Below, piece after piece: positions 4,710 to 29,318 of a stretch of 36,022 nucleotides of DNA (position 1 is its first letter; each line of letters starts with the position of its first letter). The notes beneath the pieces are model-generated. The model was not told where the DNA came from. It saw only the letters and a program-made list of their open reading frames with translations, and made no database searches. Origin of the DNA: a virus; the IMG/VR virus record IMGVR_UViG_3300030419_003641, positions 1-36,022 of that record; one strand, given 5' to 3'. Position numbers and translations under genes: made by a program.

Positions 4710-5001
4710 TTATAAATTTGATGATGAAAGTAGAATTCAACCTGTTCCTATTATTATAACAGAGGGAAAGTATGAAGGGTTGAGGTTTCAATATGGTAGA
4801 ATTTCATTTGATGAAAAAGAAAAAGGAAACATGTGTCTTACTTTTGATTACAATTTAATTGATAATCCCAATGATATAAAAGAAGACCAAGTGCTTATTG
4901 ATACTCTTGGTGAAGTATTAATGGATGTCATAAAAGTAGAACTAGATGAAGTTGATGAAGGGTTTTTGAGAGAACCAGTAGAAGTAAATGAAGACAGTTG
5001 A
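4702..5001 (+). CDS. Conserved-position hypothetical protein between uvsX and helicase
   Basis: A 99-aa acidic protein ([20 protein letters not shown]...). The ATG at 4702 is preferred because GGAG at 4691-4694 lies 7 nt upstream; an ATG at 4696 would leave a gap of one base. It overlaps the uvsX stop and the helicase start, so translation is coupled to both. Strand-rich first half, acidic helical C-terminus. No family recognised; it could be a recombination or helicase accessory factor by context only. Confidence 0.65.
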
Positions 5002-8439: not shown

Positions 8440-10362
8440 ATGACATACACAAGTGACATCCTCCCAGAACAATTTCTCCGTCCTTATATGAACATTAAAC
8501 CAAACTGGGGATACAACGGCCTTGGAGAAATTGTTTATAAGAGAACATACTCTCGAATTAAAGAAGATGGTACTAATGAAGAATGGTGGGAAACTGTTGC
8601 ACGATGTATCAATGGCGCACAGAAGATTGGTGCAGATTATACAACCAAAGAAGCACAACAACTTTATGATTATATTTTTAATCTCAAATGTAATTTTGCA
8701 GGTAGGATGCTTTGGCAACTTGGAACAACAACAGTAGATAGGTTCGGTGGCAATTCTCTACTAAACTGTTGGGGAATTTGTATTCGTGATATTGATGACT
8801 TCTGTTTCATCTTTGAAAACTTAATGCTTGGTGGTGGTGTCGGATTCTCTATTCGTAAAGAAGATGTCCACGAACTACCAAGAGTAAAAGAAGATGTTAC
8901 AGTAACACATGAAAAGACAAACGATGCAGATTTTATAGTTCCTGATTCTCGTGAGGGTTGGGTAAAACTTCTCAAGAAAACTTTGAAGTCGTATTTCTTT
9001 ACTGGTAAATCTTTTACATATTCTACTATCCTTGTTCGTTCATCTGGAGAATCAATCGGTGGGTTCGGTGGTAAAGCATCTGGTCCTGCTATTCTGATTG
9101 AAGGAATCGAAAATATTTGTGAAGTAATAAGAGAACGAGAAGGAAAGAAACTTCGTTCGATTGATGTGTTAGATATTTGTAATATTATTGGTTCGGTAGT
9201 GGTAAGTGGCAATGTTAGACGAAGTGCAGAAATTGCAGTAGGTGACCCAGATGACTATTTGTTCCTTCGTGCAAAACGATGGGACTTGGGAAACATTCCA
9301 AACTGGCGTGCAATGTCAAACAACACAATCTATGCAGATTCATACGACCACATCAGTGACGCAGTATGGAAAACTTATGATGGTTCAGGAGAACCTTATG
9401 GTTTCTTTAATTTGCCACTTGCACAAAAGTATGGCAGATTGCAAGACCGAAGTAAAGATAAATGTGAGATTATAAATCCATGTGCAGAGATTCTTCTTGA
9501 GTCCCACGAATGTTGTAATCTATCAGAGATATACTTGAATAACATTGAAACAAAAGCCGAATTAAAGAAATGTGCGAAACTGTTATACAAGACACAGAAA
9601 GCCATTTGTGCATTGCCATTTATTCATAAACAAACCGAAGAAGTGGTACATAAGAATATGCGTATCGGTGTGGGTGTAACAGGCATCTGTCAATCACTTA
9701 ATAAGATAGATTGGTTAGAGGATTGTTACAACGATTTAAAGGGGTATGACAAAGAATGGTCAAAAAGGAAGGGATACCCCACAAGTATCAGATTAACCAC
9801 TGTAAAGCCCTCAGGCACTCTCTCCTTGCTCTCAGGAAGCACGCCAGGTGTTCACCCTGCGTATGCAAATTACTTCATTCGTAGAGTAAGAATGTCTAGT
9901 AGTGATGCATTGGTGGATATTTGCAGAGATGCTAACTATCCTGTGGAGTATGCAAGAAGGTTCGATGGTACAGAAGACCACTCCACAGTTGTAGTGGAAT
10001 TTCCCTGTCATATAAATGGCAGAACAATACTTGCAGAGGACATGACTGCAATTAGGCAATTAGAATTAGTAAAGGAAATACAAACCAAATGGTCAGATAA
10101 TTCAGTATCAGTTACTGTATATTATCACCTTGATGAATTAGACGCCATTAAAGAATGGATGGAAAAGAACTATGAAAAATCACTAAAAACGGTAAGTTTC
10201 TTATTGCACTCAGAACATGGTTTTGAACAGGCGCCATATGAAGAAATTTCTAAGGAAGAATACGAAAAAAGAGTTTCAAAATTAAATGCAATAAAAAATG
10301 TTTCAAGTGGCGAAAATTTAAGTGAATTAGAGTGTGCTGGCGGTGCTTGCCCAATCAAATAA
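8440..10362 (+). CDS. nrdJ: Class II (adenosylcobalamin-dependent) ribonucleotide reductase
   Basis: A 640-aa protein that reduces ribonucleotides to deoxyribonucleotides with a B12-derived radical. NSLLNCWGIC carries the N-terminal redox cysteine. NPCAEILLESHECCNLSE (C348, C358, C359) is the active-site loop. VKPSGTLSLLSGSTPGVHPAY matches the reductase core, and the C-terminal CAGGACPIK holds the C-x4-C pair that shuttles electrons. The overall type is the monomeric B12-dependent triphosphate reductase, somewhat shorter than the roughly 740-aa Lactobacillus enzyme. There is no separate small subunit nearby, as expected for class II. An AAGGA lies upstream of the ATG. Confidence 0.95.
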   Translation: MTYTSDILPEQFLRPYMNIKPNWGYNGLGEIVYKRTYSRIKEDGTNEEWWETVARCINGAQKIGADYTTKEAQQLYDYIFNLKCNFAGRMLWQLGTTTVDRFGGNSLLNCWGICIRDIDDFCFIFENLMLGGGVGFSIRKEDVHELPRVKEDVTVTHEKTNDADFIVPDSREGWVKLLKKTLKSYFFTGKSFTYSTILVRSSGESIGGFGGKASGPAILIEGIENICEVIREREGKKLRSIDVLDICNIIGSVVVSGNVRRSAEIAVGDPDDYLFLRAKRWDLGNIPNWRAMSNNTIYADSYDHISDAVWKTYDGSGEPYGFFNLPLAQKYGRLQDRSKDKCEIINPCAEILLESHECCNLSEIYLNNIETKAELKKCAKLLYKTQKAICALPFIHKQTEEVVHKNMRIGVGVTGICQSLNKIDWLEDCYNDLKGYDKEWSKRKGYPTSIRLTTVKPSGTLSLLSGSTPGVHPAYANYFIRRVRMSSSDALVDICRDANYPVEYARRFDGTEDHSTVVVEFPCHINGRTILAEDMTAIRQLELVKEIQTKWSDNSVSVTVYYHLDELDAIKEWMEKNYEKSLKTVSFLLHSEHGFEQAPYEEISKEEYEKRVSKLNAIKNVSSGENLSELECAGGACPIK

Positions 10363-10382: not shown

Positions 10383-10410
10383 TTGACACCCCTCATTTAT
10401 AAAGTATAAT
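10383..10410 (+). promoter_or_regulatory. Strong sigma70-like promoter of the porin cassette
   Basis: TTGACA (10383-10388) and TATAAT (10405-10410), both consensus, with a 16-nt spacer. Transcription should begin near 10417. It is the only perfect bacterial-type promoter I see in the window, which suggests expression by unmodified host RNA polymerase. A TATAAA stretch just upstream of the -10 box also faintly resembles the late box. Confidence 0.85.
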
Positions 10411-10416
10411 AGGGGG

Positions 10417-10551
10417 TTAATTCATTGTCGGAGATAGTGAAGTCACTACATAAGTGACATAATAAAAACGGAGTCGGAGTTGACTTCAAGGTGCATTCCG
10501 CACCAGCCTCATAGTCAGAGGTATACTAATTTCTATTAAAGGAGAAAAGTT
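10417..10551 (+). ncRNA. Structured 5' leader of the porin cassette
   Basis: About 130 nt separate the predicted transcription start from the first start codon, unusually long for this genome. Three hairpins are visible: GTCACT/AGTGAC (10442-10458, loop ACATA), GGTGC/GCACC (10490-10504) and CCTC/GAGG (10507-10521). TGAAGTCA (10438-10445) is also perfectly complementary to TGACTTCA (10481-10488), which would exclude the first hairpin. GTCGGAG occurs twice (10427 and 10473). No known riboswitch consensus, including cobalamin, was recognised. It may stabilise the mRNA or act as a switch. Confidence 0.5.
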
Positions 10552-10737
10552 ATGGCTAACAAAGAATGCCCTATGGGCGGATGTGATGATGTAGTGTCAA
10601 AGACTCTATGTCGTGTCGGTATTACTCGTGGTATGCTTGTTACTCTTGCATTAGTTCCATTCGCATGGGATGGTGTAACTTGGTGTGGTCAAGCAGTTAA
10701 TTCCCTATGGGGTTTAATTACCAACGCTGTTGGTTGA
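10552..10737 (+). CDS. Small membrane protein upstream of porin
   Basis: A 61-aa protein with AGGAG 7 nt before the ATG. The N-terminus has four cysteines (ECPMGGC...TLC, later WCG), followed by a hydrophobic stretch (GMLVTLALVPFAW) and an amphipathic end (LWGLITNAVG). There is no clear signal peptidase site. It is the first gene of the porin transcript, 31 nt upstream of the porin start. It could be a membrane or envelope factor supporting the porin, or a small lysis or exclusion protein. No family recognised. Confidence 0.7.
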   Translation: MANKECPMGGCDDVVSKTLCRVGITRGMLVTLALVPFAWDGVTWCGQAVNSLWGLITNAVG

Positions 10738-10768
10738 AACCGAACTATAAGAAAAAGGAGATACCATT

Positions 10769-11905
10769 ATGAATATCTCAAAAATTACAAAGTTCGGTAT
10801 TGCTTCATTACTTGCAGGGATTGCATGTGGTGCGGCAGGTGCTGACGAACTAGACCTTCAAGCAAGGCTTGAAGCGGCCGAAGCAAGGATTGCTGAATTA
10901 AGTACATCTCAAGATTCAAATTGGATTAACGATACTCGTGCAGACGAAATTCGTTCACTAGTCCATGATGTTCTTGCTGATGCAGATTCTCGTTCATCCT
11001 TTTTGGGTGACGGTTCAGGCGTTACAGTAAATGTTCATGGTTGGGTTCAAACTCGTTGGACTTACAACGATACACTTACTGAAGGTGTCGATGCGACACA
11101 TGGTTTTAGTGTTCCACGAACTCGTCTAAACATTTCTGGTGACATCTACGATTGGTCATACAAAGTAGGTGGTCAATGGACTGATGGTGGCGATTTCACT
11201 CTAATGGATGCTTATGCAAATTGGGGTGGACTTCGTGTTGGACAATTCAAGGCTCCCTTTATGAAGGAAGTTTCTGCATCTAGTGCAGACACACTTGCAG
11301 TAGACCGTTCGGTTATCTCAAGTCAATTCGGTCAAGGTCGAAGTCAAGGTGTCCAATACGGATATCGTACTCGTCTTGGTGGAGTAAGACTTGCATACAC
11401 TGATGGATTTAATACTGCAAATGGCGCAGGAGTTCAAAATGGTTATGCACTTACTGGTCGTATTGACTTTCGTGCAACTGATTGGGCTAGACTCGGTGTT
11501 GCTGTTTCGCACAACGACCTAGTTGATTCTGATTATAACACATGGACTGCTGATGCTACATTCAGTGCAGGTGGATTTGATTTCACTGGTGCTTATGTTG
11601 CAACAATGGACGATGTAAACGGTGATGATTGGGGTACAGTATGGACTGCTTCCTATCAATGCACAGACAAGATGCAAGGTTTCGTTCAATACGAAATGGG
11701 TCGTCTTGAAGGTGTTGAAACCGACTTGAGCATTGCAACAGTTGGTGTGAACTATGCATTAAACGATAATGTTAAGTGGACTACCGATTTTGGTAAAGCA
11801 CTAAACAGTGTCGATGCAGGTTGGGATTTGGGTAACAGTGGTTGGAATTCATCCGCAGAAGAAGGTCAATACCTTATTCGTTCCCAAGTTCAAATTAAAT
11901 TTTAA
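10769..11905 (+). CDS. Outer-membrane porin (planctomycete-like)
   Basis: A 378-aa complete porin. Residues 1-25 are a signal peptide with an AGA|D cleavage site. Residues 26-46 form a short coiled coil (LQARLEAAEARIAELS), then RADEIRSLVHDVLADAD leads into a beta-barrel rich in alternating aromatic and small residues (VHGWVQTRWTY, LRVGQFKAPF, VQYGYRTRLGG). The last residue is Phe (VQIKF), the outer-membrane assembly signal. LRVGQFKAPFMKE resembles the phosphate-selective OprP/OprO-type fold. The coiled coil plus ADEIR..V.DVLADAD module is one I associate with Planctomycetota porins. It has its own promoter and terminator, and looks richer in GC than the flanking genes by eye: an acquired host gene, apparently intact. 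Confidence 0.88.
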   Translation: MNISKITKFGIASLLAGIACGAAGADELDLQARLEAAEARIAELSTSQDSNWINDTRADEIRSLVHDVLADADSRSSFLGDGSGVTVNVHGWVQTRWTYNDTLTEGVDATHGFSVPRTRLNISGDIYDWSYKVGGQWTDGGDFTLMDAYANWGGLRVGQFKAPFMKEVSASSADTLAVDRSVISSQFGQGRSQGVQYGYRTRLGGVRLAYTDGFNTANGAGVQNGYALTGRIDFRATDWARLGVAVSHNDLVDSDYNTWTADATFSAGGFDFTGAYVATMDDVNGDDWGTVWTASYQCTDKMQGFVQYEMGRLEGVETDLSIATVGVNYALNDNVKWTTDFGKALNSVDAGWDLGNSGWNSSAEEGQYLIRSQVQIKF

Positions 11906-11909
11906 TACT

Positions 11910-11967
11910 TCAGGAAGATTCCTGATAATTAGCAACCCCCTTTTTAGGGGGTTGTTTTTTTTATTTT
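11910..11967 (+). terminator. Rho-independent terminator after porin
   Basis: CAACCCCC (11933-11940) pairs with GGGGGTTG (11947-11954) over 8 bp, followed by a run of about eight T. A smaller hairpin, TCAGGAA/TTCCTGA (11910-11925), precedes it and may protect the mRNA end. The pair closes the porin cassette. Confidence 0.93.
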
Positions 11968-12024: not shown

Positions 12025-12828
12025 ATGAAAAACTTAGTTTGGTATCTCTCAGCATCTTTGTTATTAATTACAGGGTGTAAAGTCCCACAGGCGTCAAATA
12101 CACCCCCTCAAAACGAACAAGTTATCGTTACAGAAGAATCATTTCCAGGATATTTGGATGAATGGTTTACCCCAACAACAGAAGAAAACGACCCATACCC
12201 ATCGGTGTGTAGTTTACACCTTGAGAATGGTCATCTAGTAGGAAGCGGAATACTTATCCGTCCAAATGTAGTTCTAACGGCTGGTCACTGTATAGATGGA
12301 GATGATATATTTTCAATTACTATAGGTGAAGAACAGATAATGGTGAAAGATATGGTTTTACACCCTAGTTACAGCAAAACATTTGGGCGGATAAAAAACG
12401 ATATAGGATTAATTTTCCTTGAGTGTGATTCCAACTATGAACCCGCCACAATAGGATGTGTAGAATGGATGGGTAGATACCAAAATATAACTACCGTTGG
12501 TTATTCGTTTAATTATAAGAAATACAGTAAAAGAGATGTGTTTAGGTATTTTGGGACTGTAGTAGAAGAACCAAATTATATGAAAGTTATTCCAAGACCA
12601 GCATCAATCTGGCCTGGAGATAGTGGTGGTGGAGTATTTGCTAAGTTTTATAATAAGGATTATGTTGTAGGAATTATTAGTAATTATATTGTTGTTAGAG
12701 TGCATGATGGTAGAACTGTAGTATCCGAATGGTCTGCCACAATTATTGCGAAGTACATTGATTGGATAAGAACGGAGATAGAAAATGAGATTGAACAGAA
12801 TAATAAAACTGTTGAGGATGGAAGGTAG
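12025..12828 (+). CDS. Secreted trypsin-like serine protease, lipoprotein
   Basis: A 267-aa S1-type protease. Residues 1-18 are a lipoprotein signal peptide ending LLLITGC, with Cys18 the predicted lipidation site. The triad is visible: His in VVLTAGHC, Asp in KNDIGLIFLE and Ser in GDSGGGVF. The mature part begins with an unstructured Pro/Asn/Glu linker. The start codon is fixed by the signal peptide, although GGAG lies only 1 nt before it. It would be anchored in the host envelope, where it could cleave surface proteins (superinfection exclusion, lysis or receptor shedding). That role is inference. Codon use resembles the phage. Confidence 0.88.
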   Translation: MKNLVWYLSASLLLITGCKVPQASNTPPQNEQVIVTEESFPGYLDEWFTPTTEENDPYPSVCSLHLENGHLVGSGILIRPNVVLTAGHCIDGDDIFSITIGEEQIMVKDMVLHPSYSKTFGRIKNDIGLIFLECDSNYEPATIGCVEWMGRYQNITTVGYSFNYKKYSKRDVFRYFGTVVEEPNYMKVIPRPASIWPGDSGGGVFAKFYNKDYVVGIISNYIVVRVHDGRTVVSEWSATIIAKYIDWIRTEIENEIEQNNKTVEDGR

Positions 12829-14850: not shown

Positions 14851-15047
14851 TTGGATTTCCTTTTTTTATATTTCAGAAATGCTTTAACTATTTCTCTGTA
14901 CTTCCCTACCCCTTTTGTGTCAGGGTTTATTTTAATTTTGCCTTGCTTTCTCTGTCTAGTAACATCTGCTGCCATTGTCAAGGGACTGTCGTGTTTGTCA
15001 AAGGTTTTTGACAGGGGACTTTCGGAAAATTGTTTAAAGGATTTCAT
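14847..15047 (-). CDS. Small basic protein with capsid-targeting-like N-terminus
   Basis: A 66-aa basic protein starting MKSFKQFSESPLSKTFD. The first ten residues match the style of T4 internal-protein targeting peptides (MKTYQEFIAE), though no (I/L)xE cut site follows. The C-terminus is Lys/Arg-rich (FLKYKKRKSK). Its start overlaps the stop of the 681-aa polyprotein (ATGA) and its stop overlaps the next start. Candidate internal head protein by sequence resemblance and context only. Confidence 0.6.
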   Translation of the reverse strand: MKSFKQFSESPLSKTFDKHDSPLTMAADVTRQRKQGKIKINPDTKGVGKYREIVKAFLKYKKRKSK

Positions 15048-17089
15048 TTCTTTTTCTTTTTCTTTGCCTTTATCGCCTTCATCGCCGCATTCATTTTCTT
15101 TCTAGACCGTGCATCTGCCTCTTTTTTCCATCTTTTTTGATTTCTTTCTGAGTACGCATCTAGGTCTGCTGGTACTCCCCATTCATCCAGTTCAACGGAT
15201 TCGTTCAGTCCAAGTGCTTTCACCCACTGGTCAACACCTGCACTGATGATGTTGCTAGTAATGTTACCATAACTAATGTTGTTCTTATCACGAACATTTG
15301 CGTTTGGTGCAACGACATCAAGAACCTTCTTACGAAGTTTATTGTCAATCTTATCTGCACGAACCATAATGAATCTGGTCTTACCACCCTTTGAACGAAC
15401 AACTAGTTTACCAGTCACATGCTTCTTGACTGCTTGCTTGACTTGCTTTGCAACTGCGGAGGTATTGTCTTCATCCAGTTCAACGGATTCACCAACCCAA
15501 AGGTCTTTTGGATTTCTTAGATTCCATTGGTCGATAGCCTCTTTTGTTTTTTTCTTATTTTTTCCTGCTTTTATGTATGCTTTATCTTTGTGTATGGGGT
15601 GTAAAGGTTTTTTGTCAGAATTTTCATTGATTCCCAATATTTTTGTATTATACCAATGTATTTCTCTTTTTAATTCTCTCAGTCTTGCTCTTTCTTTTCT
15701 ATCGAACTCTGTCATTTTCATCTTTTTCTGTACATCGTGTATAAATGATTTAAAATTTAACCCTTCTTTGACTTGCTTTGGATTTGGTTTACCCTGAATT
15801 GTATCTGGCACAATTGCATGTCCTGTACCCAATTTTTTTGGATTGATGTTTCTTCGTTTAAGACGATACGAGTCATCTTTTCCTTTACCTAATTTTTCCT
15901 TTGCTCGTTTCAGGTATTCTTTTCGTGGTTTATTGAAAATGCCTGCTTTTTTACCTGCTTTTTTACCTGCTTTTCTACTTGATGAAACTTGCATCGCCCA
16001 CTGTGCCTGTTTATGTCCTGCATCACTTGTTGCTGAATATTCATCAAGTTCAACGGATTCATTCTTCTTCGCATCTCTCTTTCGGATGTATTCATTCTTT
16101 TGTTCTTTTGACTTTCCAAACAACTTGTCTGCTTCCCATGCAGTGAGATTACCTTCTAAATCTCTCGCCTTTGATATTCTATCGCCTAGGCTCGCAATTG
16201 CTTTTTGTGTTGCTTTGCTTTTTGGAGTGTCTGGTGGGAATTTTGCTTCTTCAGATGTCATAGGATTTGTAAGTGTTCTGGTTTTTCTCGCCCTATTATT
16301 TGCCATTGCATTTCTTATTATTTGCTTTTGTCTTTCACTTCTTTTTTCCGCAGACTTGGGAAGTTTAGTGGCATACTTTCCACCACTGGGACGAATACCC
16401 TCTCCACTAAAATCAAGTTTAGTTTCGTGTTCATCCAGTTCAACGGATTCACCAAGTTCTTTCTTGACTAATGCAAGTTCTTTCTTTTGCTTTGCAGGAA
16501 GATTTCGTTCTTTGCTTGCCATTGTAAGAGTTTTTTGTACAACACTTTTAGGTAAAGTATGAACATTTTTGTGGTCTATCCAATCATCGTGGGTCGCAGT
16601 TTCATATGAGTTTGTCATATGTGCAAGGATTTCTTTACCCTTCTTACTCATCTTCTTGATTCGTGGGTCGTAATCGAATTTACCTTCATCCAGTTCAACG
16701 GATTCATTTACCTCTTGTTTTGGTGGAACAAAATATGACATTGTTCCATATCTTTCATCTTTGACAATGATTGGTTTGCCTGGATTACGATGTGCATATG
16801 TGCGAATCTCTTGATTTTCAATGTCTTCCATGTTTAATTTCTTGTTCCATCTTTCATATCGCATTCTACCATGCATACATTTGGCATAGTCATCATTGGA
16901 TAAAGTAAACACTGGACACCCAGCAAAGGATTCTCTCCTTTGTTTTCTTCTTTTAATTTTGCCAAAAGGAACATCAAACCCTGCAAGATTTGGTGAACCA
17001 TCTTGAGCCGCCTGACCAACACCAAATCCACCACCACCCATTGAATTTGCAGCCATTTCTTCTGTAAATTGTTTATATGTCTTTTTCAT
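15044..17089 (-). CDS. Basic internal-protein polyprotein with five ESVELDE sites
   Basis: 681 aa from MKKTYKQFTEE (ATG at 17089). An in-frame ATG at 17104 inside the upstream gene would add MIHNS; neither has a good ribosome binding site. Five ESVELDE heptapeptides split the chain into six segments of roughly 60-190 residues, beginning GKFDYDP, HETKLDF, YSATSDAG, DNTSAVAK and WGVPADLD. All segments are rich in Lys and Arg. LDE fits the (I/L)xE cleavage rule of T4 prohead protease gp21. A GKKAGKKAGKKAG tract lies in the fourth segment. I infer a packaged precursor cut into basic, DNA-contacting or ejected proteins. No enzymatic motif was recognised. Confidence 0.75.
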   Translation of the reverse strand: MKKTYKQFTEEMAANSMGGGGFGVGQAAQDGSPNLAGFDVPFGKIKRRKQRRESFAGCPVFTLSNDDYAKCMHGRMRYERWNKKLNMEDIENQEIRTYAHRNPGKPIIVKDERYGTMSYFVPPKQEVNESVELDEGKFDYDPRIKKMSKKGKEILAHMTNSYETATHDDWIDHKNVHTLPKSVVQKTLTMASKERNLPAKQKKELALVKKELGESVELDEHETKLDFSGEGIRPSGGKYATKLPKSAEKRSERQKQIIRNAMANNRARKTRTLTNPMTSEEAKFPPDTPKSKATQKAIASLGDRISKARDLEGNLTAWEADKLFGKSKEQKNEYIRKRDAKKNESVELDEYSATSDAGHKQAQWAMQVSSSRKAGKKAGKKAGIFNKPRKEYLKRAKEKLGKGKDDSYRLKRRNINPKKLGTGHAIVPDTIQGKPNPKQVKEGLNFKSFIHDVQKKMKMTEFDRKERARLRELKREIHWYNTKILGINENSDKKPLHPIHKDKAYIKAGKNKKKTKEAIDQWNLRNPKDLWVGESVELDEDNTSAVAKQVKQAVKKHVTGKLVVRSKGGKTRFIMVRADKIDNKLRKKVLDVVAPNANVRDKNNISYGNITSNIISAGVDQWVKALGLNESVELDEWGVPADLDAYSERNQKRWKKEADARSRKKMNAAMKAIKAKKKKKK
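15183..16705 (-). repeat. Five dispersed 20-nt repeats encoding ESVELDE
   Basis: The minus-strand 20-mer GAATCCGTTGAACTGGATGA occurs at 15183-15202, 15471-15490, 16432-16451 and 16686-16705. A one-base synonymous variant (CTT for CTG) is at 16041-16060. All are in the polyprotein frame. The sequence between copies is unrelated. Confidence 0.97.
15942..15977 (-). repeat. 12-bp tandem repeat encoding GKKA
   Basis: Plus-strand unit CCTGCTTTTTTA, two full copies and a third, diverging one, encoding alternating GKKA in the polyprotein. Length variation by slippage is likely. Confidence 0.85.
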
Positions 17090-17093
17090 ACTA

Positions 17094-19562
17094 TTATGTA
17101 TCATTTGTATATTCTTCCCAGAATTTTTGTCTTTCTATATTTGATTTTTTGAGAGGTTTGTTCCTGTTTCTCCTCTCATGTTTTCTCTCCTCAGTTTGTA
17201 CTATTCTAACACAATCGCAATCCGTTGGATTTGGACGGTAATACCCAAACGCACAAGGTGCTGTATAGCATGGGCAACAACCATTTTCTGGGTCTAACAT
17301 AAAACCGAAACAATCACTATGGTCACTTTGACATTTTCTCAATGCAACTAGTTGTCTTATAATTTCTTCTGGAGTCCAAGGAAGATGCCCCTGTAATCCC
17401 AATTCTTGTATCATACATTGACCACATGACATTGTGGGGCAACCCAGACAATCTTTCGGATTATATGGGTCGAAAAATGGTGTAATCGTTGGACCTACCG
17501 GCCAGTCTTCTGGTTGAGAAATCGGTTGTTCTGGACACAGACCTCGTGTAATGCATCTGTTCATTGCTTGATTCCACCATCTTGTAAAATTCATCAAGTT
17601 CCTATATGCTTTTGATAAACCACCACAACTCCTCAAGTTGTTAGATTGACAGTACGATTGGTCTATCGCACATAAGCAAGCATCTACTGCCGCCTTACAT
17701 TCATTACAATATGAATCGTCATGACTCCAGCCTGGTGGTGGTGGTCCACCCATTGCTCTTTCTTCATAAATTCCATCATCATCATCTTCTGATGTATGAG
17801 AACATTCTACACAATAAAGTCCGTTACAACAATGCCAACCCTCTGCCCATGCAAGTGGGTTATTGGTACATTGATAACAACTCTCCCCTGTGGCACAATC
17901 ACATAAAATATCGCCTGGTATTACTATATGTGGGCATCTACCCCCTACACAAGAACTTCCGTAACCTTGCCATATTGGTTTCTTAGTACCTCCAATGGGA
18001 CTTGGTGGTTGGTAATTCGCACAATCCTCTCTTGTAGTTTCAATACAATCTTCTCCATTACAACATGCACCAAGTGTAGGTGTTGTATCTAATTCATCAC
18101 CTTCATTATATCCACACTTGTTCTGCATACATGTTTTAATACTTCTCCAGTAGTTTTCAACATTTCGTAATGCCTTACCTGTTTTATGATTTCCACAAGG
18201 ACCACCATTATGAATTTGTGCTAAATCTTTGCAAGTATAGCATCCATCAGGTCCTTTTCCACCCCACTCTCCATCTGGACATGTTCTATCTGGATTATTT
18301 GTCCATCGTTCTTCCCAACATTTAATTAATAATTGACTTCTTCTTTCTTTTTCTGCACAACATGCAGACCTTAACTCTGGAGTTGCAAGTGTAGAGCAGT
18401 CGTTTCCGGGATAATGTGGTGGGTTATGGTCTGGGTCTGGATGACTACAAAGAAATTGTCCCCATCCCAATCCTTGACATATTTCATTACATTCTGGGGA
18501 CATATAACTTTTTGCTTGTCCAGATGGAGGGTTACAACTAGTACATATGTCAATACAATAATCTTCAAAGTCTATTTGATATGGACCACAATCACAACCA
18601 CTACCATAACCACAACCAGTATTGTTTGGATTACAATGCCCATCATCCTTGTTACCACCTTCCAACCATGTGCAGTCTGACGGTGGGTAGCATTCATGTT
18701 CTCCTATGCATTCCATTAAACATTGGTAATGTTCTCCATCACAACATGTGTTTACACCACCAGATGAAAGGCTTCCAGACATTGCTTTTTCTTCACCATA
18801 TGGTGATTCTATTTCTTCGTCAACAGGACTCGTGCCTCCAACTCCACAATCTCTTACGAAATCTTCCATACATACTTCAAAAAGTTGTCCTGCTCCACTT
18901 GTACCATGCTTTTGGTCAAAAATAGTTGCACATTTAAGTACCATTGCACAGTGTATAGTTTCTGCATTTTTCATACATTCACAATATTGTTCATTTATTT
19001 GTTCTAGATTATAATTTTGTTTCTTTAGGTTGTTCTCCCTTTCCTCGGCACATTCTGCCTTTAATGGACCAACAATCAGCACATCCATTGCACTAACACA
19101 GTCATTATAACACCACAAATTTATTGTTTCGAGTTGCTGGTCTATCGGAACATTTGGGTCTGGATATCCAGAGTCGCACGGTTCTGTATCTGGTCCTATA
19201 CAATCACTATACTTTAAATCTTGACAATTGATACCATTTCCCCAATAACCACAACTACTATAATATTGTGGCCACATGTCGCAAAAGGCCTTGCACTCTG
19301 CTTCAGTCATCCTTTCACAACTACAATAATCTATACCATCACTAGTACATGCACCTGTATTGGCGTTCCACCAAGCACAACTAGTTTCTTCTCCTTGGTT
19401 GTAAGTGTCTAAACAGGAACGACCAGTTTCAAAACATGTTGTACTTGGTACATTATCTTGGCAACTGGGTGGGTCTGAATTATAATCTACACATGTACAT
19501 AACATATGAAGACCATCATCAGGGGTTAAAAAATCATCAAAGTCTGGACCACTATTTACCAT
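17094..19562 (-). CDS. Giant cysteine-rich protein
   Basis: 822 aa with about 84 cysteines (about 10%), spread evenly as CC, CxC and CxxC. No signal peptide or membrane helix is seen. One module reads GACCNGEDCIETTREDC followed some 20 residues on by WQGYGSSC, the pattern of the GACC...C...C..G.W.G.G(T/S)SC repeats I know from Planctomycetota and related surface proteins. Two spacer motifs recur: YGEEKAMSG and YEERAMGG. The C-terminus is basic (ERKHERRNRNKPLKK). It could be a tail or head surface fibre, or a metal-binding or disulfide-stabilised internal protein. Its place among structural-type genes favours a virion role. It overlaps the polyprotein start region. Confidence 0.75.
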   Translation of the reverse strand: MVNSGPDFDDFLTPDDGLHMLCTCVDYNSDPPSCQDNVPSTTCFETGRSCLDTYNQGEETSCAWWNANTGACTSDGIDYCSCERMTEAECKAFCDMWPQYYSSCGYWGNGINCQDLKYSDCIGPDTEPCDSGYPDPNVPIDQQLETINLWCYNDCVSAMDVLIVGPLKAECAEERENNLKKQNYNLEQINEQYCECMKNAETIHCAMVLKCATIFDQKHGTSGAGQLFEVCMEDFVRDCGVGGTSPVDEEIESPYGEEKAMSGSLSSGGVNTCCDGEHYQCLMECIGEHECYPPSDCTWLEGGNKDDGHCNPNNTGCGYGSGCDCGPYQIDFEDYCIDICTSCNPPSGQAKSYMSPECNEICQGLGWGQFLCSHPDPDHNPPHYPGNDCSTLATPELRSACCAEKERRSQLLIKCWEERWTNNPDRTCPDGEWGGKGPDGCYTCKDLAQIHNGGPCGNHKTGKALRNVENYWRSIKTCMQNKCGYNEGDELDTTPTLGACCNGEDCIETTREDCANYQPPSPIGGTKKPIWQGYGSSCVGGRCPHIVIPGDILCDCATGESCYQCTNNPLAWAEGWHCCNGLYCVECSHTSEDDDDGIYEERAMGGPPPPGWSHDDSYCNECKAAVDACLCAIDQSYCQSNNLRSCGGLSKAYRNLMNFTRWWNQAMNRCITRGLCPEQPISQPEDWPVGPTITPFFDPYNPKDCLGCPTMSCGQCMIQELGLQGHLPWTPEEIIRQLVALRKCQSDHSDCFGFMLDPENGCCPCYTAPCAFGYYRPNPTDCDCVRIVQTEERKHERRNRNKPLKKSNIERQKFWEEYTNDT

Positions 19563-22461: not shown

Positions 22462-25400
22462 TTATAGTTCTTTTGAGAATTTATCATTTATGGTCATGTA
22501 CGGAGTATCTTTTAAATACCGTTTGAGTAATTTTTTTGTTCCTTCTTCACCTGCACCATGTTCTTCGGTTCTTCCCTTGTTGTTGTTTCTTCCTCTGTTA
22601 TATTTTTGAGATGTTATGCTTATGTTGGATGCTGAATTGTTCATTGGATTGCCATCTTTATGGTCTATATCCTTTCCATCACCAACTGCTAACTGACCTT
22701 TTCTTATTCTTTTATTGCGCTCGTTAGTCCTCGCACTCCGTCTTTTTCTTTGTTCGGGTGTAGCATTATATTTCTTTAATCTCTTTGCTCTTTTTACTGG
22801 GTCCTCATCCTCTTTAATTTGATGAAGTCCTAATGGTTTTGTAGGGTCACCTAATTCCCAATCATCTCTACCCAATTTACTATCAAATAAATCTTTATCA
22901 TATATTTTTCTTTGATTAGGATAGTCTGGTAGGGCAAGAATTACTTCTTCATAAAATTGAGATTCATGTATGAAATTTGGACAATCTCCTTGCTCTATAA
23001 AATAATTTAATAGAGTTTTCCAAGTACCATTGTCTTCTTCAATTTTTATATGGTCATATCCGTCTGTCCATCTGATAACTTCATCTATGACTTGTCCAGT
23101 ATTTCCAATTTTACTAAGAATTGTTTCTAGAACATAGAAATAATCAATGAATAGTTCTTCACCTTCTTTAATTTCTTTTAATGCATGTGCGGTAAAGTTT
23201 CCATTATTTTCAAGCAATGAAATATTTTCATTTATATGAGAATGATTTGTCCATCTACAGAAATCTGTTCTTTGATATGTTGGAATATCTTCTAACAAAT
23301 TTAGATAGTATAGTGAAATTTCTTCTCCTGCTTTTATATCTCTTGTTGAAAAAGAACCTAAACCATGAACAGATGACTCTTTAAATTCATATGAATCGGT
23401 AACAGGTTTACGAGATTTGTACCCCTTATTCTTCATCCAATGAGCAAGAGCAAAGGGATTGTCAATGCTTTTATCTTTTTTCATTGCTTTGACAGTTCCT
23501 TCCCAACCTTCGGGAGCATCTTCAACAAACAAATTAAATTCTTCATTAAATAATGCATTTTCTTCTTCTGGGCTGAGTGCAAGGCCTTCTTCTTTTTCTT
23601 CATTTTCTTCTCTGTGTTTTAACACTGAAACTCTATGGGTTTTTGAACCTTTTTCACCATGTACTTTAATTTCGGTGGTTTCTTCAGAGTCTTGTTCTAG
23701 TCCTATGTCAGACCAGTCTTCAATTTCAGAAGATTCCATATCTTCTACATCCCATCCAAGGTGGTCTATTAGTTTAAGTGGGTCACCTTTTACATTGTCA
23801 AGTTCTTTAAAGTTCTGTGCCGCAATTTCTTTACCTGCATCTACATCCTGTTTGAATAACTGCATTGCTTCATCTTTGCTAATTTCTTCTAAGATTAACC
23901 CTTGATGATGTGCAAAGGAATCCATAGATTCTTTTGTATGAACTTGTAAGGCAGCGTATCCTTGATAGTCACCTAGTTTTAAACCAGAACCTTCTCCTTT
24001 ACCTGTTCTTTTCATCAATTCCTCAACACTTATTCCTAACTCTTTTGCGTATGCTTTCAATTTCTTTTCTTTTTGTCCAGTCTTCCAAGAAAAAGCAGTA
24101 TCAGATTTCTCCATAATTTTATTTACTGTTGCTTTACCAGCGTCAGTCCCTTTTCTGAGGTCGTTCATTGCAACATTAGTACCGTCTGCACTCATCGTCA
24201 ACATATATTCTGCTACTTTAGATGTGTTACAACCACAGTTACACCCAGTACTACAACACCCACAGAATTTACAACATCCTGTGGCTGCTTCGGTAAATAG
24301 TATTTCTTTAAATTGTTTATTGTTGTTAAAAACAGTATTAATTCTTTTTGCTAAATCTTTATGAAAAGCATTACCTTCTTTTATTTGGTTTACAATCTCT
24401 GGGTGATACTTTGAAATATCTGTACCTTCCCAATGTTCTGGTTTGGGTGCTTGACCATAAACAGAAGACCATGAAACTCCATTAGCACCAGGTCCAGAAA
24501 CATCCCACCACTTTGGTCCAGTATTTTCATTACACCCCGCACAACGATATGCACCACCTTCTGTAAACCATCCTAAAGGACCTACCCCGACTCCAGTTCT
24601 TAGATGTGTCTTCTGTCTATTCGTTAAGTCTTGAACTATCCCTTCTACTAATTCGTGTGTTTCTTTGTCCATTCCCATTGTGCTTTGACAATTTATGTCA
24701 CTTCCACATTTTTCTTTTAGCATTCCTCTTGCCATTTCAAACATTGCAACTGCTTCGCCTGGAGCAGAAGATATTAGTCTAGAAGGACCCGCTTTTACAG
24801 ATACACCATATCTTTTTTCTCTACCTTTACTATCTGTACGAACTAGAATGATATCACTTTTAGAAGTTGGACCACTTCTAGGCGCATGACTTTTCCAGTA
24901 CTTTGAGATTCCTTGTTTCTTTTCTCCAGGAATTTTCTTACCTGCATGGATTGCTTTCCATGTATATTCTTCGTTTTCATCACCCAGTTCACCTTTAGAA
25001 TTTGCATCCATAAAGTCTTTTATTCCACCAGGCTGTTCAAAAACTCTTTTTGCCACAGAACCTTCTTCAATACCATACATCTCTGCTTTTGCTTGACTCA
25101 TTGTAATACTTGAATCTATTTTATTTCTGTCTGATTTTGATATGTCACCATCATATCCATTATTAAAATGTAAATTAATATGGTCTACAATTCCTGCTTC
25201 TACATCAACCGCATCAAAGTCTGTTGGATATTTTGCTTTTCCTTTTGGTTTTTTCTTCATCAACCTATCAACTTGCTTCTGCATTTTTGCAGTTAGTTCT
25301 GCTTTGATTTCTTCATTTTCTGCATTATCATATTCTGCAATTTTTGCATCTGCATCCTTGCTTGCAAGTTCAATCTCTTTCTTTTGCAATTTCTTTTCTT

Positions 25401-26766
25401 CTGGACTTATTTCGGGTTTTACTTTACTTGGTGCTGGTGCTGATGCTGGTCCAGTTGTCGCAGTGGAATCTTTACCTTCTGGACAATTTACACCTAAGTT
25501 TTTTGAAGTTGTAGTACATTCAAAATTATCATCTTTCGATGCAGAATCCATTGCGCCTTTATTAGGTTTTGTATTTGTTATTTTGTGTGTGCCTGCTTTT
25601 TCCCCTGCCTTTGCATCACCTGCTGTCATAATGAGAACTTTTCCATCAGCAGTTCTTAAAGCAATTACTTCTGTTCCGTATTTTTCCTGTTCTCTTTGCT
25701 TTGCAATATTCTCTTGCTCTGCCTTTCTCATTTGTGAAGTATATTCGTTCAACACCTCTGTTTCAAAATTATAATCAACACTTTCAACTGCCTTTGATGG
25801 TTCTGTTGCTGTCATTCTTGCTCTCACTTGTGCTAGTCTTTCTTTCTCTTGTTTTTGCATTGTAGGCATAAGTTTCTTTGCAATCGCCGCAATTCTCTTT
25901 TTCTTTTTCTTTATTTTAGCATCAATTTTTTCTCGTTGCATAAATGGAACATCTTTCCACTTCATACCTCTGATTAATTTTGCTCTAACTTTTGCAATGG
26001 CGGCTTTATTGGCTTTCTTTACTAGTTCCTTTTTACCTTTTCTTCTCTTTTCTTTAAGTTTTCGTTTTCTTGCTCTAATCTTTGCAGTTCTCTTTGCAGT
26101 TCTTGCCATTTTTCTTCTTGTTTGAACAGAGATTTCATCCAGTTGATTATAATTCTCTGCAAATTCTACAAACTCGTCATAATCAAACCAAGATTCTTTA
26201 ATATTTCCACGAATTCCCATACCCTTTCGTACTGCTTTGAATAGTTTTAATCTATCTGCATCTGAAACATGAGAAGGCATTCCCAACTTGAATGCATTTA
26301 AATTTCCTTCAGCCGCTGCCGCCCTCATTTTAGATGCAGACATACCTTCAATACCTTCTGCATCTGGGTCCCTCTCTCCTGCGGATATAACATCAAAGTT
26401 TGCGATGTTTTCATATCCTTTTTTGCCAATATACTTCTTCATACCGTTCTTAAATTCAGGAACTCTGTCTGCACCCACCACCATAGTAACATCTGTATAT
26501 CCATCTTTGCTTAACTGTTGTAGTACTGCATAGGGATTACCTGAATCCTTATTTACTACAATGTTAGTATCTTTAAGTACCTTTTTCATAAATCTAGATT
26601 TATCCACCGCAGACAATGGATTTCTTTTAGGGTCTTTTGTGTTGCTTCCGTATATTTTATAATCTGCACCCCTTCGTCTTGCTTCTTCTTTTACTTTAGT
26701 TGCAAGTAAAAGGTGACCAGTGGTGGGTGGGTTAAATCTTCCGAATGTAAAAACAATTTTCTTCAT
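22462..26766 (-). CDS. Giant multidomain protein: nucleotidyltransferase, basic region, nuclease-like, Cys-rich, SET, HNH
   Basis: 1434 aa, with AGGAG 6 nt before the ATG. Residues 1-190 are a cytidylyltransferase-like fold (FTFGRFNPPTTGHLLL, ending SASKMRAAA; NMN adenylyltransferase-like). 210-320 are extremely basic. About 590-690 look PD-(D/E)XK-like (SDIILV ... YGVSVKAG). 831-846 are Cys-rich (CCKFCGCCSTGCNCGC). About 1087-1115 hold a WEGTVKAMKK module. 1125-1210 are a SET domain (SSVHGLGSFSTRDIKAGEEI, RWTNHSHINENISLL, GEELFIDY). 1335-1400 are HNH (GKDIDHKDGNPMNNSASN). Candidate prohead-protease sites are LDE (209-211), LNE (339-341) and LEE (959-961). I infer a packaged, possibly processed multi-effector. 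Uninterrupted frame; domain limits approximate. Confidence 0.85.
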   Translation of the reverse strand: MKKIVFTFGRFNPPTTGHLLLATKVKEEARRRGADYKIYGSNTKDPKRNPLSAVDKSRFMKKVLKDTNIVVNKDSGNPYAVLQQLSKDGYTDVTMVVGADRVPEFKNGMKKYIGKKGYENIANFDVISAGERDPDAEGIEGMSASKMRAAAAEGNLNAFKLGMPSHVSDADRLKLFKAVRKGMGIRGNIKESWFDYDEFVEFAENYNQLDEISVQTRRKMARTAKRTAKIRARKRKLKEKRRKGKKELVKKANKAAIAKVRAKLIRGMKWKDVPFMQREKIDAKIKKKKKRIAAIAKKLMPTMQKQEKERLAQVRARMTATEPSKAVESVDYNFETEVLNEYTSQMRKAEQENIAKQREQEKYGTEVIALRTADGKVLIMTAGDAKAGEKAGTHKITNTKPNKGAMDSASKDDNFECTTTSKNLGVNCPEGKDSTATTGPASAPAPSKVKPEISPEEKKLQKKEIELASKDADAKIAEYDNAENEEIKAELTAKMQKQVDRLMKKKPKGKAKYPTDFDAVDVEAGIVDHINLHFNNGYDGDISKSDRNKIDSSITMSQAKAEMYGIEEGSVAKRVFEQPGGIKDFMDANSKGELGDENEEYTWKAIHAGKKIPGEKKQGISKYWKSHAPRSGPTSKSDIILVRTDSKGREKRYGVSVKAGPSRLISSAPGEAVAMFEMARGMLKEKCGSDINCQSTMGMDKETHELVEGIVQDLTNRQKTHLRTGVGVGPLGWFTEGGAYRCAGCNENTGPKWWDVSGPGANGVSWSSVYGQAPKPEHWEGTDISKYHPEIVNQIKEGNAFHKDLAKRINTVFNNNKQFKEILFTEAATGCCKFCGCCSTGCNCGCNTSKVAEYMLTMSADGTNVAMNDLRKGTDAGKATVNKIMEKSDTAFSWKTGQKEKKLKAYAKELGISVEELMKRTGKGEGSGLKLGDYQGYAALQVHTKESMDSFAHHQGLILEEISKDEAMQLFKQDVDAGKEIAAQNFKELDNVKGDPLKLIDHLGWDVEDMESSEIEDWSDIGLEQDSEETTEIKVHGEKGSKTHRVSVLKHREENEEKEEGLALSPEEENALFNEEFNLFVEDAPEGWEGTVKAMKKDKSIDNPFALAHWMKNKGYKSRKPVTDSYEFKESSVHGLGSFSTRDIKAGEEISLYYLNLLEDIPTYQRTDFCRWTNHSHINENISLLENNGNFTAHALKEIKEGEELFIDYFYVLETILSKIGNTGQVIDEVIRWTDGYDHIKIEEDNGTWKTLLNYFIEQGDCPNFIHESQFYEEVILALPDYPNQRKIYDKDLFDSKLGRDDWELGDPTKPLGLHQIKEDEDPVKRAKRLKKYNATPEQRKRRSARTNERNKRIRKGQLAVGDGKDIDHKDGNPMNNSASNISITSQKYNRGRNNNKGRTEEHGAGEEGTKKLLKRYLKDTPYMTINDKFSKEL

Positions 26767-27371: not shown

Positions 27372-28574
27372 TTATCCTTTAATCCAATTTTTATCTACTG
27401 TGAAGTTGGCTTTACTAAATTCTAATCTGTCTACGAATTTCACAGCATTGCTAGTATATTTATCAATCGCCACATATCCTTCTGGTGCAGTTACCTTGAA
27501 TCCGTTTGGAGTCTGAATAAATGTTCCTATGGATTTTACCGATTCTAATTTCCTCAAGAGTATAATCTTACCCTTTGCTATTGAGGACCTTAAAGAAAAA
27601 AGAGAATCCAATTCTTTATTTTTAGAGTTAAGATACTTAACTATCTCGTTTCTTACTGATTCTTTCTTCTTTTTTGCACCCTCAGTTTTAAGACCGTCAA
27701 TCTGTCCTTGTATTTTGTCATTCACAAATGTTGTGAATTCCTCAGAGGAAAGATTGAGTGAACCCTCTCTAACTTTAGAGTTTGCGTAAATATTTAAGTT
27801 GTCTATTACCATTTTGTTATTTACAACATCATCTAAAAATGATTTAGATGATGATAATTTTGTTTTTGCATCAGAGATTACACCTTCAATCGTGCTTGAC
27901 TCCGAACTGGTAAGTGTTGCTGTACCACTCACATCCCTGAAGTTTGCATCGTCCACCCACACCATTCTATTTTTCTTTAGTGATTTTACATTAACACCAA
28001 ACGATGCAGACATGCTTGATATATCTCTGCCTGAGTATGAAGTATGAAAAACTATACCCATCTTTGCACTTTTAATTCTTTTACCCTCACTCGAATCTAC
28101 AGGAATTGCATATGTAATTGTGTTGGGAGTAAAAACATAATGACTTACACCATCTATGGATTTTGTTTTTACATCACCTGGACCAAACATCATATCTCCT
28201 TGAAGTACCCCTTTGATTGGAAGTTTCTTCAAATATTTTAATGCGGTTGTAAGTTTACCTACGACACCACCAGAATGATTCTTTCGTATGTCTGACGGTG
28301 TGTAGTTTATCTTTGGTTTTTTATTAAACACACTCTTTGAACCAACAAAGAATTTGCCATTCTCTGGATTGATTCCACAGATTATAGCAGGTGCGCCATC
28401 CCACTTCACTGTTGCATTTGTTCTTGACTTGGTGTTGCCATTGAGCATTAATGCAATTTCTTCCAAAAATGAAATTGCTTCTGACGCTCTTTCACTTCCT
28501 TCAAACACCAAATCTTCCACATGTGTCATGTGAGTGTTTTTGCCCTCTACAAGATAATCTGTAAATGTTTTCAT
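27372..28574 (-). CDS. Ligase-like nucleotidyltransferase with capsid-targeting-like N-terminus
   Basis: 400 aa. NATVKWDGAPAIICG contains KWDG, matching motif I (KxDG) of ATP-dependent DNA/RNA ligases and capping enzymes; FFVGSKSVFNK, LQGDMMFGP and MGIVFHTSYSG fit later motifs. The N-terminus MKTFTDYLVE|GKNTHM resembles the T4 capsid targeting peptide with an LVE cut site. A second possible cut is near LVFE|GS (residues 23-26). It may therefore be packaged. A nick-sealing or nucleotidyl-transfer activity in virions would be unusual. Start overlaps the exonuclease stop (ATGA). Confidence 0.7.
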   Translation of the reverse strand: MKTFTDYLVEGKNTHMTHVEDLVFEGSERASEAISFLEEIALMLNGNTKSRTNATVKWDGAPAIICGINPENGKFFVGSKSVFNKKPKINYTPSDIRKNHSGGVVGKLTTALKYLKKLPIKGVLQGDMMFGPGDVKTKSIDGVSHYVFTPNTITYAIPVDSSEGKRIKSAKMGIVFHTSYSGRDISSMSASFGVNVKSLKKNRMVWVDDANFRDVSGTATLTSSESSTIEGVISDAKTKLSSSKSFLDDVVNNKMVIDNLNIYANSKVREGSLNLSSEEFTTFVNDKIQGQIDGLKTEGAKKKKESVRNEIVKYLNSKNKELDSLFSLRSSIAKGKIILLRKLESVKSIGTFIQTPNGFKVTAPEGYVAIDKYTSNAVKFVDRLEFSKANFTVDKNWIKG

Positions 28575-29251
28575 ACCATATTTAGGGTTTTATTATGTTT
28601 GTGATAATTTTGTATGGTTTTGTAAAGAGGTTTAACATAATCTATTGTATTCCCGCTGAATACTTGACATGGTACACCTTCTTCATTGGAAACAATGATA
28701 TTAAACTTCTTAATTTCTGTTCCTGTTCTTTCTTGCCACATCAGCGCATATGCTGTTCCTTGAAGAAAATAGTTCTGAATATCTTCTTCGTATTTTTCTC
28801 TTGTGCTTCCCTTGAAATCTATAATTGCCAATTCGCCATTATATTCTGCAACACAATCTACTCTCCCAGCAAGACCCAAAGTTTCACTCCAGAGTGGCAC
28901 TTCAAGTGCATGTACTTTTTCTATTTTGTCCAACTCTGATTTCATTTGTGTGAACAACGCAGAAACGGTTGGTGGTTTAGACATCAAATCAATATCTTTA
29001 TTGTTTAGATAGTCTTCAATGGTTTCATGAAGAATATTGCCTCTGTTGAGAACCCTTCTGGATTCTTTTGGATTCTTTTTTCTCCACTCCTTAAAGAATT
29101 GGCTTTTCTCCCAACCCACCACAGTAGTAACACTAGGATATGTACCCGATGGTGTTTCATAGTGCCTAGTGCCATTTGCGTTGGTTGTTGCAGGGATATC
29201 TAGAAAATCTATTCCAACCTCATCATGTTCAAACACTTTCTGCATATTCAT
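28571..29251 (-). CDS. PD-(D/E)XK exonuclease, RecB/Cas4-like
   Basis: 226 aa from the ATG at 29251, preceded by AGGAG at 7 nt; an ATG at 29272 lacks this. NRGNILHETIEDYL is the N-terminal helix (H...E), LAGRVDCVAEYNGELAIIDFK contains the catalytic D ... DxK, and QNYFLQGTAYALMW is the conserved QxxxY helix. This is the RecB-nuclease (PDDEXK_1) layout seen in phage and mitochondrial genome-maintenance exonucleases. It probably degrades or processes DNA ends. Confidence 0.85.
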   Translation of the reverse strand: MNMQKVFEHDEVGIDFLDIPATTNANGTRHYETPSGTYPSVTTVVGWEKSQFFKEWRKKNPKESRRVLNRGNILHETIEDYLNNKDIDLMSKPPTVSALFTQMKSELDKIEKVHALEVPLWSETLGLAGRVDCVAEYNGELAIIDFKGSTREKYEEDIQNYFLQGTAYALMWQERTGTEIKKFNIIVSNEEGVPCQVFSGNTIDYVKPLYKTIQNYHKHNKTLNMV

Positions 29252-29318
29252 ATTATAACTCCTTTTTATCACATGTCAATAATATAATAATATATAGTAT
29301 AGATTAAGGAGGCATTTC

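Follow-up and report, generated by a model that had tools for sequence, protein, structure and literature searches.

A conserved porin operon with a structured leader RNA in marine T4-like phages

Organization of the porin cassette

The cassette described here lies at positions 10383-11967 of the virus record IMGVR_UViG_3300030419_003641 (IMG/VR), the whole 36,022 nt of which were analyzed and are referred to below as the window. It comprises a promoter, a structured leader, a small open reading frame (ORF), a porin gene and a terminator (Table 1), and transcription probably starts near position 10417. The preliminary description of this locus had listed a perfect promoter, a leader, a small membrane protein, an intact porin with signal peptide and terminal Phe, and a terminator. 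All of these elements are in place, the signal peptide being assigned by inspection and the C-terminal F378 being invariant in 28/28 sequences, and the anatomy and identity of the cassette are firm.

Table 1. Features of the porin cassette in the window and of the barrel-like protein genes that occupy the porin slot in two relatives
Feature	Position	Strand	Remarks
Sigma-70 type promoter, TTGACA-16-TATAAT	10383..10410	+	12/12 score, 16-nt spacer
Structured leader RNA, 141 nt	10411..10551	+	Five hairpins and a weak closing helix, from fold and covariation
Leader hairpin A	10421..10441	+	Loop GGA; GGAGUU in relatives
Leader hairpin B	10442..10458	+	Loop region CUAnAUA conserved
Leader hairpin C	10470..10487	+	Loop GGAGUU in most relatives
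Leader hairpin D	10490..10504	+	Stem GGUGC/GCACC covarying
Leader hairpin E	10506..10522	+	Loop with AGUC/AGCC, stem covarying
Shine-Dalgarno AGGAG, small ORF	10540..10544	+	
Small ORF	10552..10737	+	61-aa Cys-rich single-helix membrane protein
Shine-Dalgarno AAGGAG, porin	10756..10761	+	
Porin, 378 aa	10769..11905	+	16-strand barrel preceded by a signal peptide and a coiled-coil-like N-terminal segment; Phe at the C-terminus
Porin signal peptide	10769..10843	+	Cleavage probably AGA/D after residue 25, by inspection; A25 invariant
Intrinsic terminator	11931..11967	+	11-bp stem at 11931-11956, then T run
Unrelated barrel-like protein in porin slot	L152:5200-5970		
Unrelated barrel-like protein in porin slot	L136:3598-4452		

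A second promoter with the same 12/12 score (TTGACA-16-TATAAT) occurs on the minus strand of the window (29279-29252), where it marks the start of an exonuclease-like ORF (28571-29272), and hence such a promoter is not unique to the cassette. From base composition, we estimate that chance would yield about 0.07 perfect promoters of this kind per 36 kb. Among relatives, a promoter-like site scoring at least 10/12 was located no more than about 200 nt away from the small ORF in 59 of 66 cases. The earlier suggestion that the cassette forms an independent unit holds only in part: no terminator was found between the stop codon of the preceding ribonucleotide reductase (RNR) gene, at 10362, and the cassette promoter, and read-through from the replication operon is therefore possible. 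The G+C content of the cassette stretch is ~0.42-0.43, versus 0.36 in its surroundings.

Conservation across related phage contigs

Scans of IMG/VR returned 38 relatives with the porin as query and then 100 with the porin alignment, which amount to 76 distinct porin loci after removal of duplicates. Of these 76, 66 have a complete porin frame, the remainder running into contig ends or not being scored complete, and this disposes of the concern that the porin might prove truncated in relatives. The small protein adjoins the porin in 67 of the 68 loci with enough upstream sequence for the test, and a class II RNR gene lies within 1.5 kb upstream in 60 of 68 loci. L100 has a porin without the small protein. 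Conversely, nearly all the relatives recovered through RNR alone (at least 80% identical, with more than 1 kb of downstream sequence) carry the cassette, which is missing from L200 and L211. Independent contigs repeat the arrangement in which RNR is followed by the small protein, the porin, the trypsin-like lipoprotein and RuvC. Relative to the window copies, dN/dS is 0.22-0.30 for the porin and 0.13-0.46 for the small protein; judging from these ratios, both are under purifying selection. In many loci the RNR gene ahead of the cassette is one of two divergent class II types, scoring ~1300 and 220 bits against the window RNR, a pattern that would fit replacement of the RNR with retention of the cassette.

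Phage identity and genomic neighborhood

Upstream of the cassette, and on the same strand, lie genes for a T4-type DNA polymerase, UvsX, a gp41-like helicase, a primase, ThyX and a class II RNR, so that the cassette directly follows the nucleotide-metabolism genes thyX and RNR. Downstream come a gene for a trypsin-like protein (12025-12828) with a lipoprotein signal (LITGC) and TAGHC and GDSGG motifs, and then a RuvC-like gene; in 33 of 51 relatives, the trypsin-like lipoprotein gene lies no further than 3.5 kb downstream. As for gp23, the T4-type capsid protein, it was found in all seven relatives longer than 100 kb and in 8/8 of the largest relatives tested, one of these being a partial match at a contig end. 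It is absent from the 36,022-base window, which is therefore likely a fragment. With T4-type core genes in the window and gp23 in its relatives, the assignment of the cassette to a T4-like phage made in the preliminary description is borne out.

No match to PF00124 (psbA/psbD photosystem genes) was detected in 13 records, which argues against a cyanobacterial host, and the window DNA polymerase is only ~49% identical to those of cyanophages; on both counts a cyanophage (Kyanoviridae) assignment was rejected. In the same 13 records PhoH gave no match above the cut-off, and PstS was found in one only. The latter, a gene for a PstS phosphate-binding protein (G002:C1:48040-48780, L230), is situated ~9 kb from the porin.

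The leader RNA

The window leader folds with a predicted energy of -41.6 kcal/mol (z = -4.68), and 0/200 shuffles were as stable. Leader coordinates were set by choosing the ATG with a Shine-Dalgarno sequence, a few long upstream ATGs being dropped by hand. For three hairpins compared across 28 relatives, 98% of cells are paired and 9 of 15 pairs have changed on both sides, a degree of covariation that no shuffle reached and that was lost when the partners were slid. The full five-hairpin structure, in 13 closer relatives, gives 90.5% of cells paired and 13 doubly changed pairs, with weak support for the closing helix P1, which is mostly G-U. In the window search, no Rfam family matched the leader at the gathering score. 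To judge from its covariation, the leader is a multi-hairpin RNA outside the known Rfam families.

With a covariance model of the leader, no record yields more than a single strong copy, which lies at the cassette locus; the model gives no match in two of 13 records and only a weak one in another. Weaker matches elsewhere in the window have E values of 0.075 and up and are probably due to chance. The leader is also present in G007, where the small protein stands without a porin. Of 84 leaders, 45 have a hairpin that presents GGA, whereas shuffles would lead one to expect 12, and the loop GGAGUU recurs on unrelated stems (L017 and L096, for example). In T4, RegB cuts GGAG in early mRNA. A search for RegB (PF10715) returned no match at E≤1 in the 13 records, several of which are fragments, and on this basis RegB-type processing of the GGAG loops was set aside as an explanation.

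The small membrane protein

The small protein is predicted to begin with a Cys-rich N-terminus and to continue as a single long helix (residues 26-60), with W39, W44, W53 and the pair P36-F37 conserved. None of its 26 members examined against PHROG gave a significant match, holin families included. The small protein, and not the porin, is the constant element of the operon, for it is retained where the porin is missing or where another barrel stands in its place. It follows RNR in the absence of a porin in L126, L140 and L144, whereas in L136-L138 and L152 it is followed by an unrelated 256-aa barrel-like protein with signal peptide and C-terminal Phe. The order is swapped, with the porin first, in L148, L150, L151 and L154. 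In other phages (L143, L146, L155, L159, L164 and L167) a porin-less small protein stands beside a weak match to hemolysin (phrog_1193) and a lipoprotein, with the small ORF near position 5000 in most of them, and in L132 and L134 it is found near a destabilase-type lysozyme, in L132 with a GroES-like gene near as well. Given that the small protein occurs without the porin and has no known transport role, the operon may concern something other than uptake.

Fold and lumen of the porin

An AlphaFold model built from 28 sequences (mean pLDDT 71, pTM 0.64), in which we place moderate confidence, predicts 16 strands following an N-terminal helical, coiled-coil-like extension of ~60 residues. The best folds in the PDB are general porins (E ~1e-14), with Omp32 at the top and OmpF types and OprP/OprO close behind. 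The predicted 16-strand barrel, with a long inward L3 loop whose region has a fixed length of 29 residues, is that expected of a 16-strand general porin. In terms of families, PF07396 (Porin_O_P) matches the window porin with 29.3 bits (cut-off 20.9) over residues 105-231 only. Of the 28 members of the family, 9 match it at E≤0.1, and eight match Porin_4.

Eight lumen-facing positions (R96, R117, R119, K132, R156, R231, K336 and R371) carry a basic residue in no fewer than 24 of the 28 sequences, as do R180 and K166 in loop L3, and four lumen positions are conserved acidic. Lumen facing was assigned by strand alternation, which is approximate (strands 143-152 and 155-161 are ambiguous). Conservation is 0.70 for positions so assigned to the lumen versus 0.60 for lipid-facing ones. 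External loops are mostly short, nearly constant in length and not hypervariable, L4 being 91% identical across the family. Together, the conserved lumen and the nearly fixed loops look as though selection had acted on the pore and not on changeable epitopes at the surface, and a conserved basic lumen in a barrel lacking hypervariable surface loops favors uptake of solutes, presumably anions, over receptor masking. Because the inward assignment is approximate and acidic residues outnumber basic ones over the whole barrel, anion preference is a prediction only. The predicted lumen suggests a preference for anions, but it does not point to specificity for phosphate.

The likeness to phosphate-selective porins pointed out earlier is a weak link: PF07396 matches the window protein above its cut-off, but only 9 of 28 members match that family and the Omp32, OmpF and OprP folds fit alike. 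The structure prediction that had been recommended as a way of finding a phosphate-binding Lys/Arg ladder places eight conserved basic positions in the lumen, plus those of L3, but does not show specificity for phosphate.

Origin of the porin and comparison with known systems

No close cellular relative of either the porin or the small protein was found in 84,980 GTDB species genomes, using pattern scans that reach only fairly similar proteins. The preliminary description had advised a phylogeny of the porin against bacterial genomes, for which these scans supplied no close cellular homologue. A tblastn search of 50,697 phage records with the porin gave one remote partial match (26%), in an unannotated record from human feces that is not lambdoid, and a sequence search of the PDB gave nothing useful. 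Plasmid porins from Sulfitobacter, Bacteroides and others match at 25-34%, a Sulfitobacter porin having ~27% identity over 82% of the length. With no donor found in the GTDB scans and plasmid porins at only ~25-34%, a close cellular source for the porin or the small protein was discarded. In the light of these remote phage and plasmid matches, the porin family is confined to phage contigs, as far as tested.

Phage-borne porins are represented by Lc of the temperate enterobacterial lambdoid phage PA-2 and by NmpC of defective lambdoid prophages. The present family shares with them the presence of a 16-strand outer-membrane porin gene on a phage, but no deposited lambdoid porin matches it in the tblastn search above and, unlike Lc, it belongs to T4-like marine phages, where its gene shares an operon with that of a small membrane protein behind a structured leader. 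Compared with general porins (Omp32, OmpF and that of Sulfitobacter), it has the same 16 strands, L3-type constriction loop, basic lumen wall and C-terminal Phe, whereas it differs in its coiled-coil-like N-terminal extension of ~60 residues and has so far been seen only in phage contigs. It resembles OprP and OprO in its 16-strand fold (TM-score ~0.6 to both), although most family members, unlike PF07396 porins, give no match to PF07396.

A viral OmpL-like porin has been reported beside glnK-amtB in phages of oxygen-minimum zones (OMZ), with which it was captured. Flavobacteriales have the same arrangement, Bacteroidetes are the predicted hosts of those viruses, and the porin has been discussed with genes for nutrient (nitrogen) acquisition (PMC8115048). 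A marine phage porin as such is therefore not new. Like the OMZ porin, the present one comes from marine virus contigs and belongs to a unit with a predicted promoter on one side and a terminator on the other; unlike it, the cassette has no amtB neighbor, its partner is the small membrane protein and it is linked to RNR. No description of this porin family was found in the searchable literature, outside of which most subscription journals lie; to judge from that literature, the family seems to be new, and so do the operon and the leader RNA.

Proposed function of the operon

We interpret the cassette as an envelope-modifying operon of marine T4-like phages, the likeliest benefit of which would be an influx of small anionic nutrients, a reading to which we assign a probability of about 0.45. 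For its function, we infer that host RNA polymerase would transcribe the operon early, as its consensus promoter suggests, and that the structured leader may stabilize the mRNA or control its translation. The small protein would insert in the inner membrane with its N-terminus in, as predicted from charge, and the porin would be exported by Sec and BAM to give the infected Gram-negative cell an additional 16-strand, basic-lumen pore in its outer membrane. The influx of phosphate, organic acids and other small anions might in this way be kept up or raised at the time of phage nucleotide synthesis by the adjacent RNR and thymidylate synthase.

Several lines of evidence suggest such uptake: the recurrence of the module in 76 loci under purifying selection, the top fold being that of Omp32, an anion-selective type, the conserved lumen basics, the adjacency to thyX and RNR, the PstS-bearing relative and the covariation of the leader. 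On the other hand, the lack of PhoH and the single PstS in 13 records, the net acidic barrel and the moderate pLDDT speak against it, as does the perfect -35 of the cassette promoter, in which it differs from typical PhoB-activated promoters. For phosphate in particular, the support goes no further than the basic lumen and the one relative with PstS.

It is also possible, if rather tentatively, that the leader and the small protein make up the core of an undescribed phage system for taking over the host envelope. A regulator would then recognize the GGA-presenting hairpin loops of the RNA, and the small protein would act with whichever outer-membrane barrel, this porin or an unrelated one, follows it.

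The PA-2 porin replaces host porins, and this precedent raises the possibility of superinfection exclusion by receptor replacement, with the phage porin displacing host porins that serve competitors as receptors. An early-type promoter would suit a protein acting before competitors arrive, and a porin without close cellular homologues in our scans may lack the host receptor loops. We nonetheless regard exclusion as rather unlikely, if still a serious rival to uptake, since the surface loops are short, nearly fixed in length and not hypervariable (L4 included), and neither the small protein nor the conserved lumen charges would have a role.

A lysis or envelope-breach module, with a holin-like or lysis-timing small protein and the barrel as its outer-membrane partner, seems to us slightly less probable still, though it too is a serious rival. 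The pairing of the small protein with an unrelated barrel, its position beside the hemolysin match and lipoprotein in the L143 group and its proximity to a lysozyme in L132 and L134 are all congruent with such a role, but the promoter is of the sigma-70 early type, the linked genes in this T4-like clade are those of replication rather than lysis, the small protein has no holin match and the barrel retains its lumen conservation.

We consider it improbable that the two proteins simply offset the halt of host outer-membrane synthesis in long infections, with no specific nutrient role. The ability of different barrels to fill the slot behind the small protein and the trypsin-like lipoprotein gene that follows in 33 of 51 relatives would fit such homeostasis, which leaves the conserved lumen residues unexplained and has no independent evidence in its favor. 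Finally, porins are normally cellular genes and the G+C content of the cassette departs from its surroundings, but an assembly chimera, as feared in the preliminary description, or a recently captured host gene with no phage role is ruled out for practical purposes by a gene order that dozens of independent contigs share, by dN/dS and by the lack of a close cellular homologue in our scans.

Phage-encoded porins have so far been seen as rare captures. Here, a promoter-driven porin operon of an apparently phage-confined family, which has a structured leader RNA of its own and in which the small membrane protein is an almost constant companion, is conserved next to the nucleotide-synthesis genes of a widespread clade of uncultured marine T4-like phages, and it suggests that infection by these viruses involves a remodeling of the bacterial envelope. 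Were the operon to raise anion uptake, they would feed their replication directly at the outer membrane; were it instead a system for envelope takeover or exclusion, the small protein and the RNA would be new parts to study.

Additional open reading frames in the window

Two large ORFs (686 and 822 aa) on the minus strand at 15044-19562 have no PHROG or Pfam match. A further minus-strand ORF, of 1434 aa (22462-26766), joins a cytidyltransferase-like N-terminus to other domains, a weak HNH match among them.
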